48,222 nucleotides of DNA, taken from positions 1 to 48,222 of IMG/VR virus record IMGVR_UViG_3300032397_000022; one strand, given 5' to 3'. This DNA is from a virus. This document shows positions 2,014 to 38,262 of the stretch, piece after piece. How positions within the stretch are numbered: position 1 is the first letter of the stretch; the number at the start of each line of letters is the position of its first letter. The notes beneath the pieces were generated by a model that searched no databases, was not told the origin of the DNA, and saw only the letters and a program-made list of their open reading frames with translations. The position numbers and the translations under genes are program-made.

Positions 2014-3771
2014 CTATTCGGCTGTGATTGTAGCACTAAACCCGCCAACGATGCCCGAGTAGCCTGGCGAGTAACCTGGAAACGGAACGGCTTGCATACT
2101 CCATAGTACGACTGGCACCTGAAGCCCGCTAGGGTCGTAGCCGATCTCCCTGACCTGGGCGGGCACGTTGTCAAAGACCACGGCACCAATTTGCACTGAT
2201 ACCAGGACCCACTGCCCTAGCTCAAGGAGAACCGACCTCGATGTCAGGGTGACTGAGACAAGCTCCGACTGAGCCGACGCTAGGCGCAGGATCTCGACAA
2301 GCTGCCTGGTGACGTCGTCTTTGGTGTAGAGGTTAGGAAAGATAATTTCCTTGGTCGCTGTCCTGCCCATCTGTGTGATGGCCGCAGCGTTGTTGTAGAA
2401 GCCAGTGGCTAGTGACGTCTCGCTTGCCCCGGCCTTGCGGTCATAGAGCGCCCTAGCTCTGTTGAAATTGTTTTGGCTATCTAAGGTGGGCTTAAACGTC
2501 TCTTTGACGACGTCCCAGTTGCGCACCTTGAAGCTAGGCGAAGCCACCCAGTCTTCAAAGTGGTTGCTGACAAGCTGTAGCTTTTCCTCCCGGTTAACGA
2601 ACAGCTCCAACCGCACCTGGGCCAGTAAAGAGATTGAATATTGCATCGCCGTTTGCACTTCTTGAAGCCACACTCTTGAAGGGATTAAAGCTATAGCTGA
2701 CTGGAGCGGGGTCGCCTTGGCCTCGAACGTGGCCCAGCTAGCATCGAAGTCGCCGTAGGCGAAGCCGCCGTAGGTGACAAGGATGTCTTCGGCTTGTGCG
2801 ACGGGATTATTAGTCAGCCCTCCAGCTAGGGCCTTGCCCACGACCCGGCAAAAGATCTCGTCGCCGTTGGCATAGGTCCACACCTCAGACCCGCCAGGCC
2901 CCGCCCCTGCCCCTGAGATGGCCGGTGGTGGCGGGATCTGGGTCGCTGCCGTCTGCTTGATCTCGACGTAGTTTTTGTTGACGTTCAAGTTGACGATGTC
3001 GGCAGGGTCGAATGCCGTAAAGTAGCCGCTGCGTTTGATGTAGACCGCCGTGACGTCAAAGGATGTGTTGGCGTTTTCGCTGATGATAAACTCGGCATTG
3101 GCCGTTGGGTTAGCTAGGGCATAGTCGCCGTTGACGCAGTAGAGCGGGACCGACGCGGTCTCGACTCCGTAGGGGTCTTTTTGCACCGCCGTGGTCCAGT
3201 CGCCATAGATGACGGGCACGGCCAGGCCGATCTTGTCTTCCTCAAGGTTAGGAAAGCTGGCCACTGTAAGTGCGGTTGACGGTAGGTTCTGGTCGACCTT
3301 GTCGAAGGCATCCCGGGTTGTGAAGGTCAGGCTCTTGGTCGTCCTGCCAAATCCCGCGATAAAGGTCACTAGGCCAGAAAAGATCTGCTTGTAGGTCGAT
3401 GCCTGGTCTCTTAGGCCCAGACTGACGACGACCGACTTGCCGATAAAGCCCGAGTAGTCGGACCCGCCTAGCTGGAAATTATTAAAGCGAGAGTCGACGT
3501 TGCTTAGATCAAGGGTGAGCGACGAGAATTCAATTTGGTTTTGTAGGTAGTGGCTGATCTTTCGATTGATCACCGGGAAGGTTAGCAGGGCCTCGTAGAA
3601 GGTGGGGCCGACGTACTTGTTGCGATCACTTGCCCGGATGTGGCCCGTGGTCGTCTCGATGTCGACGATCAGCTCTAGGCGAGTCTCCAGGTTGTCCTGG
3701 GCCGTCTGGTCAAGGAACGCCTGGTCTAAGACGGTGGCGACTAGGTAGGCCCTGCGGTCTTGGCTACTCAT
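2014..3771 (-). CDS. Tail tip / baseplate-hub-like protein
   Basis: A 585-residue protein whose ATG overlaps the stop of the upstream tail gene (ATGA at 3768-3771), showing translational coupling. It has features of the large distal tail proteins encoded after the tape measure: a long beta-rich N-terminal region, the segment AVPVIYGDW near residue 190 (an 'I/VxYG' motif common in siphovirus tail-tip proteins), and a C-terminal half with repeated beta-strand segments. No lysozyme or peptidase motif is visible. Position and size support a hub or central tail-tip role; the specific family is not certain. Confidence 0.75.
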   Translation of the reverse strand: MSSQDRRAYLVATVLDQAFLDQTAQDNLETRLELIVDIETTTGHIRASDRNKYVGPTFYEALLTFPVINRKISHYLQNQIEFSSLTLDLSNVDSRFNNFQLGGSDYSGFIGKSVVVSLGLRDQASTYKQIFSGLVTFIAGFGRTTKSLTFTTRDAFDKVDQNLPSTALTVASFPNLEEDKIGLAVPVIYGDWTTAVQKDPYGVETASVPLYCVNGDYALANPTANAEFIISENANTSFDVTAVYIKRSGYFTAFDPADIVNLNVNKNYVEIKQTAATQIPPPPAISGAGAGPGGSEVWTYANGDEIFCRVVGKALAGGLTNNPVAQAEDILVTYGGFAYGDFDASWATFEAKATPLQSAIALIPSRVWLQEVQTAMQYSISLLAQVRLELFVNREEKLQLVSNHFEDWVASPSFKVRNWDVVKETFKPTLDSQNNFNRARALYDRKAGASETSLATGFYNNAAAITQMGRTATKEIIFPNLYTKDDVTRQLVEILRLASAQSELVSVTLTSRSVLLELGQWVLVSVQIGAVVFDNVPAQVREIGYDPSGLQVPVVLWSMQAVPFPGYSPGYSGIVGGFSATITAE

Positions 3772-5204
3772 AGGCTCTCGTCGACCTCCAAGCTGAAGTC
3801 GATAAAGTCGATGTCGATCCCTTTGTCGTTGTGCGTCTCGTCGGGCAGCTCGGTTAGCTTGCCAAAGATCGCAAACCTAGTCGGGTACTGCGGGGTCGGT
3901 ATCCACAGGCACTTGAGCGAAGTCCTAGCATAGTCAAAGATCGCTTCTAGGGCCGCGTAGTTGGCCTTCTGAAAGTCGATGTCTTTAAACTGAAGCCCTA
4001 GCTTTCGCTTAAGACTGCGGTCGTTGGTGACGAAGGTGAAGCCCTCTGTCGGGATTGAGTCTTTATAGTGCGTCTTTTTCCACTTAATCTGATCGACGAT
4101 GTCGTCACCGATCAAGATGGTGGCCGCCCCGTAGACGATGGTGCCGATTTGGATGTAGCCGCTTGGGTTGGTTGGGTCATTGATCACTAGACGCTGGTAG
4201 CGGTAGCCAGCCAGAGGCAGCAGCGGCGAAATAAAATACATATTGACCAGGGTGGTCTGGAGCGTGACTTCATGGCCAACGGTCGAAAACGTCGGGTCGT
4301 TGGTCTCTTGCAAGACGACGACCGCCGACAGCGTCATGTTGTGGTTAAGGATCGCCAGCGTGTCGACAAAGACACCTTGGGGCACCCCGGTATCAGCCGT
4401 GAGGGTGACGCCTGAAACAGCGGCGTTGGACTTCCAGACAAACTCGACGATGTCGTTGTTGAGGTTGTTGACCGAGAAGTCCCCGGCTGCCGTACTAGAC
4501 GCCGTCCAGTTGGTGCCCGTCAGCCCGCGAGACGGGAAGCGCGACAGGACCCGCAGGTTGGTCGTGTTGTAGAGGACCAAGGTTACTTGCTGGTGCATCG
4601 AAGTGATGAAGACCCGCGACACCTGGAAACCACGGTGAAGGGCCGCAAGGATCACCCGTTGGACTTGGGTGCTTGTGGCCCTGGTCACTGAAATCTGCCG
4701 AGAGACTTGGGAAGGACTCTGCGACAGTTGGCCGGCAATGGTGCGGGAAACCTGGGTCCTAATAGCCCGGCTAGACGCTATGACCCGCTGCACCTGAAGT
4801 CCCGTCGGACTTGCCGTGCTGATCTCGCGTGAAACTTGGATGGAGGTTGGCGTCACCTGGGTTGTCATTAAGTTTACCTGAAACCGTCCGTGCGCGCAGA
4901 TATCATTGGCTAGGTAGGCAGTCGCTAGGTAGGGCTTGGCCAGGTATTCTTCGCAGATTTCATGGAGCCAGGTATTTGGAAGGACCGACATGCCAACGCC
5001 ACTGCTGCCACTGGCTACGCTTCGCCCGACCTGGGTGCCCGCTACCTTCGAGCTAGCCGCGATCATGCGGGCTTGGAAGTGGGTCGACTGGCTCGACTGC
5101 ACGACGAGGTTGACCTGGGCACCCGTCCCTAGCTCAGCGGTCGATGCTAGGTAGGGGGTCGCCAGGTAGGGCTGCTCTAAGTAGCCGTGGACGGTCAGAC
5201 TCAT
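3768..5204 (-). CDS. Distal tail protein with an N-terminal 14-residue repeat array
   Basis: A 478-residue protein lying directly after the tape measure; its start overlaps the tape-measure stop. Residues about 22-210 form an internal repeat of about 14 residues centred on Q-V-x-R-x-I (Gln-Val pairs at 30, 58, 109, 123, 137, 151, 166, 180, 194), in two blocks. Each block is introduced by a YLxxPYLATxYLA motif (residues 8-19 and 87-98). The C-terminal half (about 215-478) is a beta-rich domain without repeats and probably anchors to the tail tip. Position and size fit a distal tail or minor tail protein; the repeat may be a beta-solenoid or fibre shaft. Confidence 0.75.
   Translation of the reverse strand: MSLTVHGYLEQPYLATPYLASTAELGTGAQVNLVVQSSQSTHFQARMIAASSKVAGTQVGRSVASGSSGVGMSVLPNTWLHEICEEYLAKPYLATAYLANDICAHGRFQVNLMTTQVTPTSIQVSREISTASPTGLQVQRVIASSRAIRTQVSRTIAGQLSQSPSQVSRQISVTRATSTQVQRVILAALHRGFQVSRVFITSMHQQVTLVLYNTTNLRVLSRFPSRGLTGTNWTASSTAAGDFSVNNLNNDIVEFVWKSNAAVSGVTLTADTGVPQGVFVDTLAILNHNMTLSAVVVLQETNDPTFSTVGHEVTLQTTLVNMYFISPLLPLAGYRYQRLVINDPTNPSGYIQIGTIVYGAATILIGDDIVDQIKWKKTHYKDSIPTEGFTFVTNDRSLKRKLGLQFKDIDFQKANYAALEAIFDYARTSLKCLWIPTPQYPTRFAIFGKLTELPDETHNDKGIDIDFIDFSLEVDESL
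4575..5141 (-). repeat. Protein-level tandem repeat (about 14 residues) in the distal tail gene
   Basis: This DNA encodes roughly ten copies of a degenerate 14-residue unit with Q-V-x-R-x-I at its core. Spacing of the Gln-Val pairs is 14, 14, 14, 15, 14 and 14 residues in the longer block, with one 12-residue step at the end. The array is split by a second copy of the YLxxPYLATxYLA introducer, so the whole region looks like a duplicated module whose second copy expanded. Confidence 0.8.
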
Positions 5205-17027: not shown

Positions 17028-20000
17028 TTATGGTTGTTCACTATCGAGGATAGCAGACGCATTTGAAGTGGCGCTAGAGGGCACACTATTTACCAGGGAG
17101 CAGCGACAGTTGTGAGCTATAAGACCATTGGCAAGATACCAACCGCCTTCAGTCTGGAGATTGTAAACATGTCCATCAAAATCCCGCCTCTCGACATCCC
17201 CCACCTCTATAAGCTCCACACCGAGCAAAAGCTGTCCATGGTGGAGTTGGCTAAGATGACTGGAGTGTCCCGCATCACGCTGGTTAGGCACTTCAATCTT
17301 GCCGGTTTTCAGCAGCGTGGTCGCAGTGAGGCCGAGGTCCTTAAGTGGTCCAGGTGGGGTATTGATCGCAGGCGCGAGCAGGTCGCCGGGGCCAACAAGG
17401 CTATGCGTGGGTCTGATCCAACCAGGCGCCTGGTCCTTTCCGCTAAGACCAAATTCAAGACCTTGTCCAAGGTTGGAGTCGGGGAGGCCGACGTCATCAC
17501 CTACCTGCTCCTCAGCGGCAGAAGCCCTATTTGCCAGGCCCCTATCGGTAAATACAACATCGACGTCTTGTGTGGTGCCGTCGCCGTGGAAGTCAGCACT
17601 ACTTCCTGCTACCCGCATGTGTACAAAGCCTTTCGAGATCGAACTAAAAATCTCGTCAAAATTGGCTTCAACATTTTCCATATTGCTCTCGACGAGACTA
17701 GGACCATTGAACCCGCTGCTTTTGAATACCTTCTGACCTTTTGTCAGACTTCCGAACGTGACCCAACCTTCCGGGGTCAGTACCGGGTGATTGGGTGTGG
17801 CGGCAACCTCAAACTGGCCATGGAGCTGCACGACGACAAGTGGACCCACATAATGCCGTCTGAATACCCGCTCCGCCCCCACCGCTTGAATCTTGGTTGA
17901 CCCGACAAAGCAGTTGATGACCTCGCCAGCTTCCCCGCCGTAGTCCCTTGGCACCGACAGACCAGGCGCGTATTCGTAGTCTACGTCGACTTCGCGCAGC
18001 GACTCATACTCAAGATGCGAGTCCCTAACGTGCCCGTCTTCAAGCGACACCCACGACTTTTCGACCTTGGTAAAAACTTCCTTAAGGTCTTCTTGGTGGT
18101 CCTTGATGCCCGCTGACAGGGCCGACAAGGTCTCAGTCCTAGAGATCGTGAACGCTTGGTCTGGGTAGTTCTCGCCGTATGTCTGGCGGATAAAGGCCGC
18201 TATCTCGTCAAGCGTCTTGCCGTCGTTGAAGCCCGCCTCGACGATCGACATGATCTGGTTAGTCCTGGTCTCATTAAACCCGTAGAAGCGTTCGATGGCT
18301 CCGGCCCTGACCTTGCCGTCGCGGTCTTTCTTGCCCCTGGCTTCTAAGACGTCGATGGCTTGGGCATCACGGTCAGTAAAGCGGTAGGTGCCACCGCTAG
18401 AATCCTTGGTCATCGCGGTCACGCTCTTGACCTTGGCCCTAGCCATCGAATAGCCACGGGCGGCGACTCGCTCAAGTAGATCCTTAGCGTCGGTGATGTA
18501 GGCGTCTTTTAGATCGTCCTTAAAGGCGTCCAGATACCCGCGTGGGTCTTGCTTACTAGCAACCGCACGTTCAAAGAGCATGAACACGTTTTCTAGGTAG
18601 CGTTTATAGACCTTCAAGTAGGCTTGGCCAAAGGACCGCTCGATCGTCAGGATGTCGTTGGCAGCGGTCTCCTTGACCAGTGCCCAAGCTGCCTGCTTGT
18701 CGGGCACCGACTCAGGAGGCACCCCGACGGGTCCGGTGACGCCTTCTTCTGGTTGGGCCTGGCTGCCGTCTGGACCGATCAGCTTGCCCATGATGATGGT
18801 GACGCTGTCGGGCATAGGTAGGCTTTTAAAACTGTTGGGCACAAAGTCGTTTTCTGACTGTTGGACCACTCTCCAGCAAGTGCCCGCGTCGATGACGGGG
18901 TCGCCAATCCAGCCATGGGTGACGGCGTAGGCCGTGACGTCTTGTGGGGCCTTGTAGACTTCTTTGCCGAAGGTGACAGCGTGGATACGGTATTCGCCGT
19001 CCTTGGCCTGGTCCTTGGCTGATAGTTGCAAGGACATAGGTGACGGCGCCACAGGCTTACCAGCATAGACGTCGCCGTCGGACCTGGGGGCTTCGTTAAA
19101 GACCTTCTTGCGGATCTCGTTGATGGTAAAGAACGACGAAATCTTGGTAGCGATCTCACCCTTGACGGCCAGCTCGCCCTGGTCGCGCATGTTCTTGACC
19201 TTGGACATGTCGGCCCTGATCTCGACTTGGCCCCGGTAGATGGTTTTAACTAGGTGGCTGGAGTTGTAGCCGTCTTCGATAAAGCCGATGATAGGTAGGA
19301 TGGTGTTGTCTTGAAAGATCTGCATCTGTCCTTCAGACGTCGAGTAGTTGACGTCCTCGGTTAGTCCTACCATGGACGGCGGGATGCCCAGGACCGACAA
19401 GATTGCTAGGCGGTCTTCTTTCTTACTGGCGATAAACTCCATGTCTTTCATCGACGAGCTGTTGGCTTTCCAGGTTGCACCCTTTGGCAAAAACAGCGTC
19501 CTCCACCAGTTGCGTTTGCCGGTGAAGGAGTTTTCAAAAGACCGCATCAGTCGAGCAAAGCGAGTGGTTGAAATGTCGGTCGTGCATTCGATGACGCCGT
19601 TGGCAGTGGCCCCTCTGAGATAGAAGGCCATCTCGAATTCCGCTTTGTACCTGTCGAGGATAAGAGGTCTAGCTGCTGCCGAGAAAGCCGACAGGCCGTA
19701 AAAGGGGTTTGACGGGTTAGGTAGCCGGATATGGATGACGCGCTCATACGGCACAGTGTACTTGCTGCCAAGCCGACTGGGGTCTGAGACGGTGATACTA
19801 GAAGGACCAGGGTTGGATACATCACCTAAGTTTATCGTGACCAGCTCGACCGGGGCCATGGTCATCGACAGATAAAACGGGTCGATGGTCAAAAAGAAGT
19901 TGCCGCCAAGGACCAAGTCTAGCCAGCCGCACCACTGTTGCTGCCTGCCCGACTGCCACATCGACCCGGTGTTGATCATCTTGATCAGCGGGTGGTTGGG

Positions 20001-20351
20001 GACTTCTTCTTCAGTACCCGGCTTGTAAGCCTTAAACTGGATCGCTGAGATCGTCTTGGCAATCAGGGTGGCAGTGGCATAGACCCAAGGCTCGGAGCCG
20101 TAGAGGGCCTTAACCCGCCCCGCTGTGGCCCTAATGTCAAACTCCTTGCCGAAGTACCCGCCCGACTCGTTCATGCCGTCAAACGCTTGGTAGTCTTGGT
20201 AGTTGAGACCCTTTTTAAGAGCAGCTTCCATGGCTGCCTCAACGCGGTCTTCGTCCTGGCTCGACGGGTAGCCGAGGTCGACGGGTAGGACACTGCTGGA
20301 AGCGGGCACAAGAGACCGTCCTTTGGGGTTGAGCCAATCTTTAAGAGCCAT
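17028..20351 (-). CDS. Portal protein fused to a MuF-like head morphogenesis domain, interrupted by an intein
   Basis: A 1,107-codon gene. Residues about 1-440 are an HK97-family portal (LYGSEPWVYATATLIAKTIS near the start, later GMMVGLT-like and DNTILPIIGFIE segments). Residues about 560-840 are a MuF-like domain, with TRTNQIMSIVEAGFNDGKT, a SRTETLSALSAG helix and the closing Asn-Cys-Arg-Cys motif. That motif is split by a 268-residue intein (residues 814-1081). Removing it joins GEVIN to CRCSLVNSVP and leaves a protein of 839 residues. The gene starts at an ATG with GGAAGG upstream, after the large terminase. Portal-MuF fusions are known in other phages. Confidence 0.92.
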   Translation of the reverse strand: MALKDWLNPKGRSLVPASSSVLPVDLGYPSSQDEDRVEAAMEAALKKGLNYQDYQAFDGMNESGGYFGKEFDIRATAGRVKALYGSEPWVYATATLIAKTISAIQFKAYKPGTEEEVPNHPLIKMINTGSMWQSGRQQQWCGWLDLVLGGNFFLTIDPFYLSMTMAPVELVTINLGDVSNPGPSSITVSDPSRLGSKYTVPYERVIHIRLPNPSNPFYGLSAFSAAARPLILDRYKAEFEMAFYLRGATANGVIECTTDISTTRFARLMRSFENSFTGKRNWWRTLFLPKGATWKANSSSMKDMEFIASKKEDRLAILSVLGIPPSMVGLTEDVNYSTSEGQMQIFQDNTILPIIGFIEDGYNSSHLVKTIYRGQVEIRADMSKVKNMRDQGELAVKGEIATKISSFFTINEIRKKVFNEAPRSDGDVYAGKPVAPSPMSLQLSAKDQAKDGEYRIHAVTFGKEVYKAPQDVTAYAVTHGWIGDPVIDAGTCWRVVQQSENDFVPNSFKSLPMPDSVTIIMGKLIGPDGSQAQPEEGVTGPVGVPPESVPDKQAAWALVKETAANDILTIERSFGQAYLKVYKRYLENVFMLFERAVASKQDPRGYLDAFKDDLKDAYITDAKDLLERVAARGYSMARAKVKSVTAMTKDSSGGTYRFTDRDAQAIDVLEARGKKDRDGKVRAGAIERFYGFNETRTNQIMSIVEAGFNDGKTLDEIAAFIRQTYGENYPDQAFTISRTETLSALSAGIKDHQEDLKEVFTKVEKSWVSLEDGHVRDSHLEYESLREVDVDYEYAPGLSVPRDYGGEAGEVINCFVGSTKIQAVGAERVFRRHYVGPLVVVQLHGQFEVAATPNHPVLTPEGWVTFGSLTKGQKVFKSSGFNGPSLVESNMENVEANFDEIFSSISKGFVHMRVAGSSADFHGDGTTQDVDVVFTDRGLANRASAAEEQVGDDVGLPDSNLGQGLEFGLSGKDQAPGWIRPTHSLVGPGDLLAPAINTPPGPLKDLGLTATTLLKTGKIEVPNQRDAGHSSHLSQLHHGQLLLGVELIEVGDVERRDFDGHVYNLQTEGGWYLANGLIAHNCRCSLVNSVPSSATSNASAILDSEQP
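17063..17092 (+). promoter_or_regulatory. Weak candidate promoter for the antisense endonuclease
   Basis: TTGAAG (17063-17068) and TATTTA (17087-17092) are 18 bases apart on the plus strand, about 77 bases upstream of the nuclease start. The -10 match to the sigma-70 consensus is poor (three of six). It lies in the last portal codons. It is offered only because an antisense gene inside a late operon needs its own promoter. Confidence 0.2.
17109..17912 (-). mobile_element. Intein in the MuF domain of the portal fusion
   Basis: Codons 814-1081 of the portal-MuF gene encode a Hint domain. Block A begins with Cys1 (CFVGSTKIQAVG), block B has the TxxH motif at 39-42 (TPNHPVL), block F is VYNLQTEGGWYLANGL at 249-264, and block G ends in His267-Asn268 followed by Cys+1. 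All class 1 splicing residues are present, so it should be active. Residues about 67-245 have no recognisable fold and correspond to the antisense of the nuclease gene at 17169-17900. There is no in-frame sense homing-endonuclease domain. Confidence 0.93.
17169..17900 (+). CDS. Putative Vsr/EDxHD-like homing endonuclease encoded antisense inside the intein
   Basis: A 243-residue protein on the strand opposite to the intein and wholly within it. The ATG at 17169 has GGAGA eight bases upstream, which decides the start over an ATG at 17112. Residues 20-50 are a helix-turn-helix (KLSMVELAKMTGVSRITLVRHF). Residues about 104-185 match the Vsr-like core of EDxHD homing endonucleases: GEADVITYLL with Glu106, IGKYNIDVL with Asp132, VAVEV with Glu141, then an RxxNLVKxGF segment and FHIAL. 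The C-terminal QYRVIG segment is also usual in such proteins. Its codons are in exact antisense register with intein codons 5-248. Homing of the intein is inferred, not shown. Confidence 0.82.
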   Translation: MSIKIPPLDIPHLYKLHTEQKLSMVELAKMTGVSRITLVRHFNLAGFQQRGRSEAEVLKWSRWGIDRRREQVAGANKAMRGSDPTRRLVLSAKTKFKTLSKVGVGEADVITYLLLSGRSPICQAPIGKYNIDVLCGAVAVEVSTTSCYPHVYKAFRDRTKNLVKIGFNIFHIALDETRTIEPAAFEYLLTFCQTSERDPTFRGQYRVIGCGGNLKLAMELHDDKWTHIMPSEYPLRPHRLNLG

Positions 20352-37478: not shown

Positions 37479-37726
37479 CCATCTACCCGAATTCTCATGT
37501 CGTGATTACAACCAAGCTGCGCGGCGTGGCTGACGAGATCTCGACGTGTCTTAATTCCTTTGGCCGGTGGGATAGCGTCGTCGTACCCAGCGGGCTTAAA
37601 TGGATGGTCATGCTACCCGGGCAAGATAGCCCCGAGATCAAGACCTATATGCACGGCTTTCTGGACGGCTGGCTGACGTCGTCGAGGTTGTTTTCTGACA
37701 AGCTGAAAGCGAGCGGGGGCATATGA
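37475..37726 (+). CDS. Small hypothetical protein
   Basis: An 83-residue protein whose ATG overlaps the previous stop (ATGA at 37475-37478). The sequence (MTIYPNSHVVITTKLRGVADEISTCLNSF then GFLDGWLTSSRLF) is alpha/beta-like. Its own stop overlaps the ATG of the RuvC-like gene. It is probably an accessory of recombination or replication by context. Confidence 0.68.
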   Translation: MTIYPNSHVVITTKLRGVADEISTCLNSFGRWDSVVVPSGLKWMVMLPGQDSPEIKTYMHGFLDGWLTSSRLFSDKLKASGGI

Positions 37727-38262
37727 AGGTAGCGGGTATAGATCCAGGCCGCAAAGGATGCCTTGTCGTCGTCGATACGGCCACGACCAAGGGCCATGCT
37801 TACAAGCTGGCTTACGACAAGGCGGGTCATCTCGACTGCGTCGGGCTAGTCGAGTTTTTAACCATGGCCAAGCCAGGCGCACTGATCATCGAAAAAGTCT
37901 CGGGCTTTCGCGGGTCGGGGGCTACCCAGACCTTTAGCTTCGGCTTTGCCTGCGGCGAACTAAACGCCGTCGTCACAAGCTGGGCCAGCCACTATCACGC
38001 CTCGCTGGTCTATGTCTTGCCGCAGAGCTGGCAGAAAGTAGTCCACGTTGGCACACCGCAAAAGCAGCCCGCCAAGGACAAAAGCCTGCTGGCCTACCAG
38101 AGACTTTTCCCGCACAAGCCTTTTTCCCGTGGTGCCAAGGGCGGCAAGGTCGATGACAACCTTGTCGATGCCCTGCTGATCGCAACCTACGGCGTCTTAA
38201 AGATCGCTAACAGCACCATCCGGCTTTGGGACATAGACCTTCATAAAAGGACTTCGATATGA
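37723..38262 (+). CDS. ruvC: RuvC-like Holliday junction resolvase
   Basis: A 179-residue RNase-H-fold nuclease. The acidic active-site segments are GIDPGRKG (Asp7), LIIEKV (Glu58, with Lys instead of the usual following residue) and DDNLVDALLIATYG (Asp about 144 and 149). A conserved LPQSWQKVV segment lies before it. It would resolve branched DNA before packaging. It overlaps genes on both sides (ATGA). Confidence 0.85.
   Translation: MKVAGIDPGRKGCLVVVDTATTKGHAYKLAYDKAGHLDCVGLVEFLTMAKPGALIIEKVSGFRGSGATQTFSFGFACGELNAVVTSWASHYHASLVYVLPQSWQKVVHVGTPQKQPAKDKSLLAYQRLFPHKPFSRGAKGGKVDDNLVDALLIATYGVLKIANSTIRLWDIDLHKRTSI

Follow-up and report, generated by a model that had tools for sequence, protein, structure and literature searches.

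Does an intein that carries no endonuclease domain in its own reading frame have its homing enzyme encoded on the opposite strand? The question is raised by one locus in a viral genome (IMG/VR record IMGVR_UViG_3300032397_000022; the window, i.e. the whole stretch analyzed, is 48,222 nucleotides), where an intein interrupts a minus-strand portal-MuF gene and a long plus-strand frame lies inside the intein. We consider it highly probable (about 0.9) that the locus is a homing intein whose endonuclease is a separate opposite-strand gene rather than a domain of the intein, and the evidence is described below step by step.

Host gene and intein

The features of the minus strand are as follows.

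17028..20351, minus: portal-MuF fusion gene, interrupted by the intein, 1107-aa precursor (Pfam Phage_portal, E 3e-45; Phage_Mu_F, E 1e-4)
17109..17912, minus: class-1-like Hint intein, 268 aa, Cys1 to His-Asn (PF14890, TIGR01443/1445, Foldseek)
17775..17801, minus: intein block B, ATPNHPVLT, antisense of the nuclease segment (G)QYRVIGC; block B His in 179/179
17577..17594, minus: intein motif DFHGDG, antisense of nuclease Ala-Val-Ala-Val-Glu141-Val

The product of 17028-20351 (minus) also has a PHROG portal/head morphogenesis match. The intein is located near its C terminus, with Cys1 at 17912 and Asn268 at 17109, followed by Cys-Arg-Cys on the minus strand. All the class 1 intein features, namely Cys1, TxxH in block B, block F, His-Asn, and Cys+1, are present. 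PF14890 matches the whole ORF (E 8e-8), the intein alone (E 2e-8), and 38/38 related inteins. The Hint fold is found in the predicted structure, whose top Foldseek matches are the RadA, RecA, and GyrA inteins (probability 1.00). Most of both Hint halves have pLDDT values near or above 90 in the AlphaFold model, and residues 125-224, lying opposite the N-terminal part of the nuclease, are predicted to be disordered (about 35-43). The intein halves are not on separate genes, since 17028-20351 is a single continuous frame, and the element is an open-frame Hint intein, not a ribozyme. The original prediction had described a complete class-1-like Hint intein in portal-MuF with no endonuclease domain on the sense strand. 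The matches above bear out the former, and the latter agrees with a Pfam search of the 38 inteins, in which no in-frame endonuclease family was found at E 0.1.

It should be noted that the profile PHROG 15127 ('head protein', 602 positions) aligns with intein and linker sequence in several members, including the window product of 17028-20351, and thus seems to have been built from intein-bearing MuF proteins. This suggests that MuF/head-protein families in databases, such as PHROG 15127, may contain overlooked antisense nuclease sequence.

The frame opposite the intein

The plus-strand frame has the following features.

17169..17900, plus: nuclease gene, helix-turn-helix (HTH) and Vsr/EDxHD-like, 243 codons and TGA, nested in the intein
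17196..17300, plus: N-terminal HTH, residues about 10-44 (AlphaFold helices 10-19, 24-31, and 35-44; HTH families in many relatives)
17484..17486, plus: Glu106, active-site candidate, kept in 174/179
17553..17564, plus: Tyr-Asn-Ile-Asp132 motif (Tyr 176, Asn 176, and Asp 179 of 179)

The codon boundaries of the nuclease and intein frames coincide, i.e. both are written on the same codon lattice. No antisense stop is seen in the 243 codons, against 6.5 expected from codon usage in the adjacent MuF/portal sequence, which would occur by chance in about 0.1% of cases for the window locus alone. The gene was re-found where it had been predicted, wholly inside the intein and with GGAGA eight bases before its ATG, and the predicted retention of an open intein frame opposite it also holds. 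The predicted core of Glu106, Asp132, and Glu141 is likewise conserved among the cluster representatives, Glu141 in 179/179; a His after Glu141 is common among the relatives, not universal. Contrarily, the overlap extends beyond the linker, to which it had been supposed to be confined: it begins in block F, at the start codon, spans the entire N-terminal Hint half, and ends just short of Cys1. The description of the linker of about 180 residues as only the antisense of the nuclease holds in part: most linker residues vary, whereas DFHGDG in the linker is under selection in the intein frame as well, as described later. Elsewhere in the window, a RuvC-like Holliday junction resolvase (PHROG 1770, E 1e-16) is located at 37723-38262 (plus), and the rest of the genome is mostly minus-strand.

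An open frame could also be the mirror of a conserved intein linker, no gene at all, with the nuclease likeness arising by chance. At high GC, antisense frames aligned on the same lattice easily stay open, and the window frame alone has no significant Pfam nuclease match. The fold, conservation, and substitution data bear on this explanation.

Fold and family of the antisense product

As a single sequence, the window nuclease frame gave only weak HTH or chance matches in Pfam, NCBIfam, and the PDB, so that alignments were required for the nuclease assignment. A profile search of the PDB with a 52-member alignment matched 3hrl (E 3e-7) and 3r3p, the catalytic domain of I-Bth0305I (E 8e-5). Among the 52 members, 30 match MTES_1575 and nine match DUF559 in Pfam, and several HTH families are found in many. 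The AlphaFold model (mean pLDDT 91.8) has HTH helices at the N terminus and a nuclease core of the alpha/beta type. Foldseek alone gave no match to this model in the PDB with E <0.001. In VIA-align, Vsr (1cw0, Z 10.4), I-Bth0305I (Z 10.0; 88 residues, 2.0 Å), and 3hrl (Z 9.7) ranked at the top, clear of most other rows. The comparison with I-Bth0305I-like enzymes, which had been proposed as a check, therefore gave a match by both profile and model, and the assignment of the antisense product as a Vsr/I-Bth0305I/DUF559-type endonuclease is supported by profile and predicted fold.

Selection on the two frames

Substitutions were compared in 43 disjoint sequence pairs. Over the HTH and the core, nuclease-synonymous changes are about 2.5 times the expected number (2.55 times in the core) and doubly nonsynonymous changes about 0.3, whereas in the N-terminal Hint half intein-synonymous changes are in excess instead (2.2 times). 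Since this pairwise test alone cannot separate selection in the intein frame from ordinary codon-position effects, the exteins of the same genes were added as a control. The ratio of nonsynonymous changes that are silent on the antisense strand to those that are not is 133:225 in the exteins, 177:146 in the nuclease core (p 5e-6 versus exteins), and 242:246 in the HTH (p 4e-4), suggesting that the intein frame is also constrained. Antisense stops are involved in 79 of the single-base codon differences found in the exteins. Judged from these substitutions, both frames are under selection. Selection only in the intein frame, which would have spoken against the original prediction, is not what is seen: selection acts on the nuclease frame in the HTH and core, and on the intein frame in the Hint half. 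Stops do interrupt the nuclease frame in some related inteins, but these cases are rare and resemble losses (L302/L332, L334, and L289).

A chance mirror of the linker is hardly credible in view of these results. Asp132 and Glu141 are invariant in 179 clusters while most of the opposite intein residues vary, the excess of plus-synonymous changes falls in the HTH and the core, and the Vsr/I-Bth0305I fold is predicted with confidence, whereas the intein linker opposite is predicted to be disordered (pLDDT about 35-43). The start-codon and Shine-Dalgarno preferences given below also argue against it.

Motifs placed back to back

The conserved motifs of the two proteins overlap. A conserved nuclease segment (YRVIRG) is written opposite block B (TPNHPVLT) as its reverse complement, and AVAVEV, which includes the catalytic candidate Glu141, lies opposite DFHGDG in the same way. 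This overlap allows a further explanation, in which the intein frame of the linker is passive, selected for openness alone, and its HGD is a by-product of nuclease codons. The low pLDDT of the linker and the free variation of most of its residues are consistent with such passivity. Codon choice in the nuclease should be noted here; the background for most of the codon tests was extein codon usage. The Ala139 codon is GCC in 173/174, compared with about 40% at four other conserved Ala columns (p 9e-56), and the third base of the Val138 codon is almost always C; these two preferences fix the Gly and Asp of the intein. The codon of Glu141 is GAA at 142:37, compared with 81:93 for Glu106 (p 2e-10). 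Moreover, DFHGDG is kept in L302 despite the loss of the nuclease there and the presence of nine antisense stops. The codon bias and this retention indicate that DFHGDG is not a by-product of nuclease codons, and together with the intein-frame constraint seen against the extein control they make a passive linker frame unlikely, although it is the most plausible of the alternatives considered here.

Candidate expression signals of the nuclease gene

Three candidate signals precede or open the gene, each being the reverse complement of intein codons.

17118..17123, plus: TATAAG, -10-like box, one mismatch to TATAAT, reverse complement of block G Leu-Ile codons
17156..17160, plus: Shine-Dalgarno GGAGA, 8 nt before the ATG, reverse complement of block F Asn-Leu-Gln codons
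17169..17171, plus: ATG start, reverse complement of the block F His codon CAT (start-codon counts in relatives below)

With the start columns defined from the nuclease alignment, the codon opposite the block F His is ATG in 107 and GTG in 21 of 168 relatives. The corresponding CAT:CAC ratio of 107:21 at block F differs from those at the block B His (57:122) and in the exteins (464:768), and within single loci the pairing of CAT at block F with CAC at block B is found in 74 versus 5 (p 8e-17). A Shine-Dalgarno-like core is found in 100/129 relatives, mostly at a spacing of 8-9 nt, versus 15% at internal ATGs; it is the weaker argument, since the core is partly dictated by the amino acids of block F.

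Opposite block G, hexamers with at most one mismatch to TATAAT number 59 in the family versus 22 expected (maximum 33 in 500 resamplings), and perfect TATAAT hexamers 24 versus 3.5 expected. The Ile codon at -3 in block G is ATA in 43/80 (16% in exteins, p 2e-14), and the codon at -2 ends in CA in 52/96 (16% in exteins, p 5e-18). These preferences suggest an extended -10 promoter opposite block G in many members. A scan of the window for consensus sigma-70 promoters gave no full site.

Distribution of the nested arrangement

A database search for reverse-strand nuclease frames in MuF inteins had been proposed. IMG/VR was scanned with the nuclease and, separately, with the intein, giving several hundred loci from the best 80 matches per query; loss states may be under-counted among these best matches. 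Fetched loci that match both the nuclease and Hint number 407, and all 407 are antisense, nested, and on the same codon lattice. They fall into at least 284 clusters at 90% amino acid identity and 152 at 50%, which are counts of clusters and not of independent events. The intein-frame query found the nuclease in 80/80 best loci, in a ranking that used the whole intein with its linker. By tblastn, the window plus-strand protein matches 104 phage records at about 27-32% identity (E to 1e-19), and the matches mostly lie antisense to a gene annotated as MuF, minor capsid, or head morphogenesis. A more central nuclease member matches two plasmid records and 131 phage records, which include phages of Pseudomonas aeruginosa, Klebsiella, Escherichia, Vibrio, Acinetobacter, Helicobacter, and Rhodococcus. 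Carriers of the nested arrangement itself include phages that infect Gordonia, Salmonella, Pseudomonas, Klebsiella, and Vibrio. In the annotation of Salmonella phage PK2, the antisense ORF appears as a hypothetical protein next to the gene for head morphogenesis. The insertion site is at the C-x-C codons of MuF (...|C-x-C) in 261/359 delimited inteins, and other sites are found elsewhere in MuF (Sejanus L009 and L032) and in the large terminase (L061 and L084; PHROG 2). These records confirm, by sequence, that the antisense-nuclease intein is distributed far more widely than in one phage genome.

The distribution also bears on the function of the enzyme. An expressed nuclease might serve in restriction, repair, or phage competition in the manner of Vsr or DUF559 proteins, using the intein as a safe site without being a homing enzyme. 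Many bacterial genomes do have DUF559/MTES_1575-like nuclease domains without a Hint match: in 398 Pseudomonadota genomes, weaker nuclease matches, mainly to the nuclease domain, are many, and none of the 28 fetched has a Hint match. The same genomes, however, contain only two full-length HTH-nuclease matches (L412 and L413), and both are nested antisense. Because every one of the 407 members with both parts is nested in an intein, and because the inteins are polymorphic at exact sites as described below, a role other than homing is improbable.

Mobility and loss

Intein-free alleles at the same site are seen in family members of species other than that of the window. Gordonia phage Affeca has 948 nt more than the near-identical, intein-free Shivanishola, exactly at the Asn-Cys codons, and 816 nt in Salmonella phage PK2 are absent from SETP13. 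The proposed comparison of inteinless MuF genes at these codons thus finds two alleles without the insert. Of the 348 records matching the PK2 gene, nearly all are Salmonella phages; 58 cover at least 80% of the gene, i.e. include the intein, and most of the remainder align only outside it. Salmonella L223 and Pantoea AH01 have inteins that are 88% alike, whereas their N-exteins can be aligned over 45% only, at 73%. In addition to the nuclease-loss states L302/L332, L334, and L289, short inteins are found in L274, L279, and L284. The exact presence and absence, the similar inteins in diverged hosts, and the loss states fit a homing cycle.

Other inteins were also observed. Gordonia phage Thing3 (L327) has an apparently unrelated 275-aa intein without an antisense-nuclease match at exactly the MuF site of Affeca. 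The MuF gene of L302 has two inteins, and a 325-aa GIY-YIG endonuclease (2856-3833, plus; Pfam E 4.5e-9) lies inside the first, different one, on the same strand in another frame. The portal-MuF gene of L028 also has two, with LAGLIDADG-like motifs (by eye) in the portal intein and an antisense-nuclease intein in MuF.

Proposed mechanism

In the homing-intein reading, the minus strand would be translated with portal-MuF, and the Hint halves would join the host protein by splicing and release the intein, the middle of which is probably mostly unstructured. The plus strand would give a two-domain protein consisting of an HTH for DNA binding and a Vsr/EDxHD-like nuclease. Its transcription would probably start from the short promoter opposite block G, and its translation from the ATG opposite the block F His, with the ribosome site opposite the next codons of block F. 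Cleavage by the nuclease would be expected at the Asn|Cys-Arg-Cys codons of MuF alleles that lack the intein, and repair would then copy the intein in. In the original prediction a nuclease gene had invaded an older mini-intein, which is one possible origin of the arrangement.

A broader proposal, to which we give less weight while still favoring it, is that these loci represent an extensive class of mobile elements in phages. Each element would encode two catalytic proteins, one per strand, on one codon lattice with their motifs back to back, HGD facing the catalytic Glu and block B facing a C-terminal strand of the nuclease, and the promoter, ribosome site, and start codon of the nuclease would be the reverse complement of blocks G and F. 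If so, the need of the host for splicing would preserve the expression signals of the nuclease, and splicing and homing would be locked together. Full antisense overlap of two conserved domains, with overlapping key motifs, is doubted by many specialists outside small or dispensable proteins. With at least 284 clusters showing the arrangement, some of them from cultured phages, bidirectional coding can be tested directly through single-base substitutions that leave the protein of one strand unchanged.

Comparison with known systems

Homing inteins themselves are known. The in-frame LAGLIDADG and HNH homing inteins share with the present element the Hint domain, insertion at conserved codons, and presence/absence polymorphism; they differ in that here the nuclease is a gene of the other strand and the sense linker has no detected endonuclease domain. 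Split-intein 'fractured genes' with a free-standing EDxHD nuclease were reportedly described by Dassa et al. in 2009. They tie the same nuclease superfamily to inteins, whereas the present intein is contiguous, with the nuclease gene covering nearly all of it.

The EDxHD enzymes, including I-Bth0305I, are Vsr-like homing nucleases of phages (review PMC3943268). The predicted nuclease-domain fold and a multi-domain DNA-binding architecture are common to them and the present enzyme, a likeness drawn here from fold and profiles, but the latter is nested antisense in an intein and has its HTH at the N terminus. Antisense homing endonuclease genes are known in nuclear group I introns, as in I-DsqI of Didymium (PMC9548176). 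There, too, a homing gene lies opposite the strand of the host gene inside a self-splicing element; contrarily, the host element is a ribozyme, the nuclease is of the His-Cys type, and no second protein-coding frame is overlapped. The ShiLan domain, a hidden out-of-frame HNH in an insertion in a phage methylase (PMC11855218), is similar in that a phage gene has an in-frame insertion with a nuclease in a second frame, and differs in being read from the same transcript in that other frame, in its HNH type, and in having no detected splicing domain. A paper on Jerseyvirus mentions an intein-containing capsid morphogenesis protein, and its passages on inteins and homing contain no antisense nuclease that we could find (PMC8425127).

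A literature search, with subscription papers mostly outside it, found no description of an intein with an antisense homing gene. We know of this coding architecture in no other intein. It would be a further way of pairing a splicing element with a homing enzyme, beside in-frame fusion and free-standing genes.
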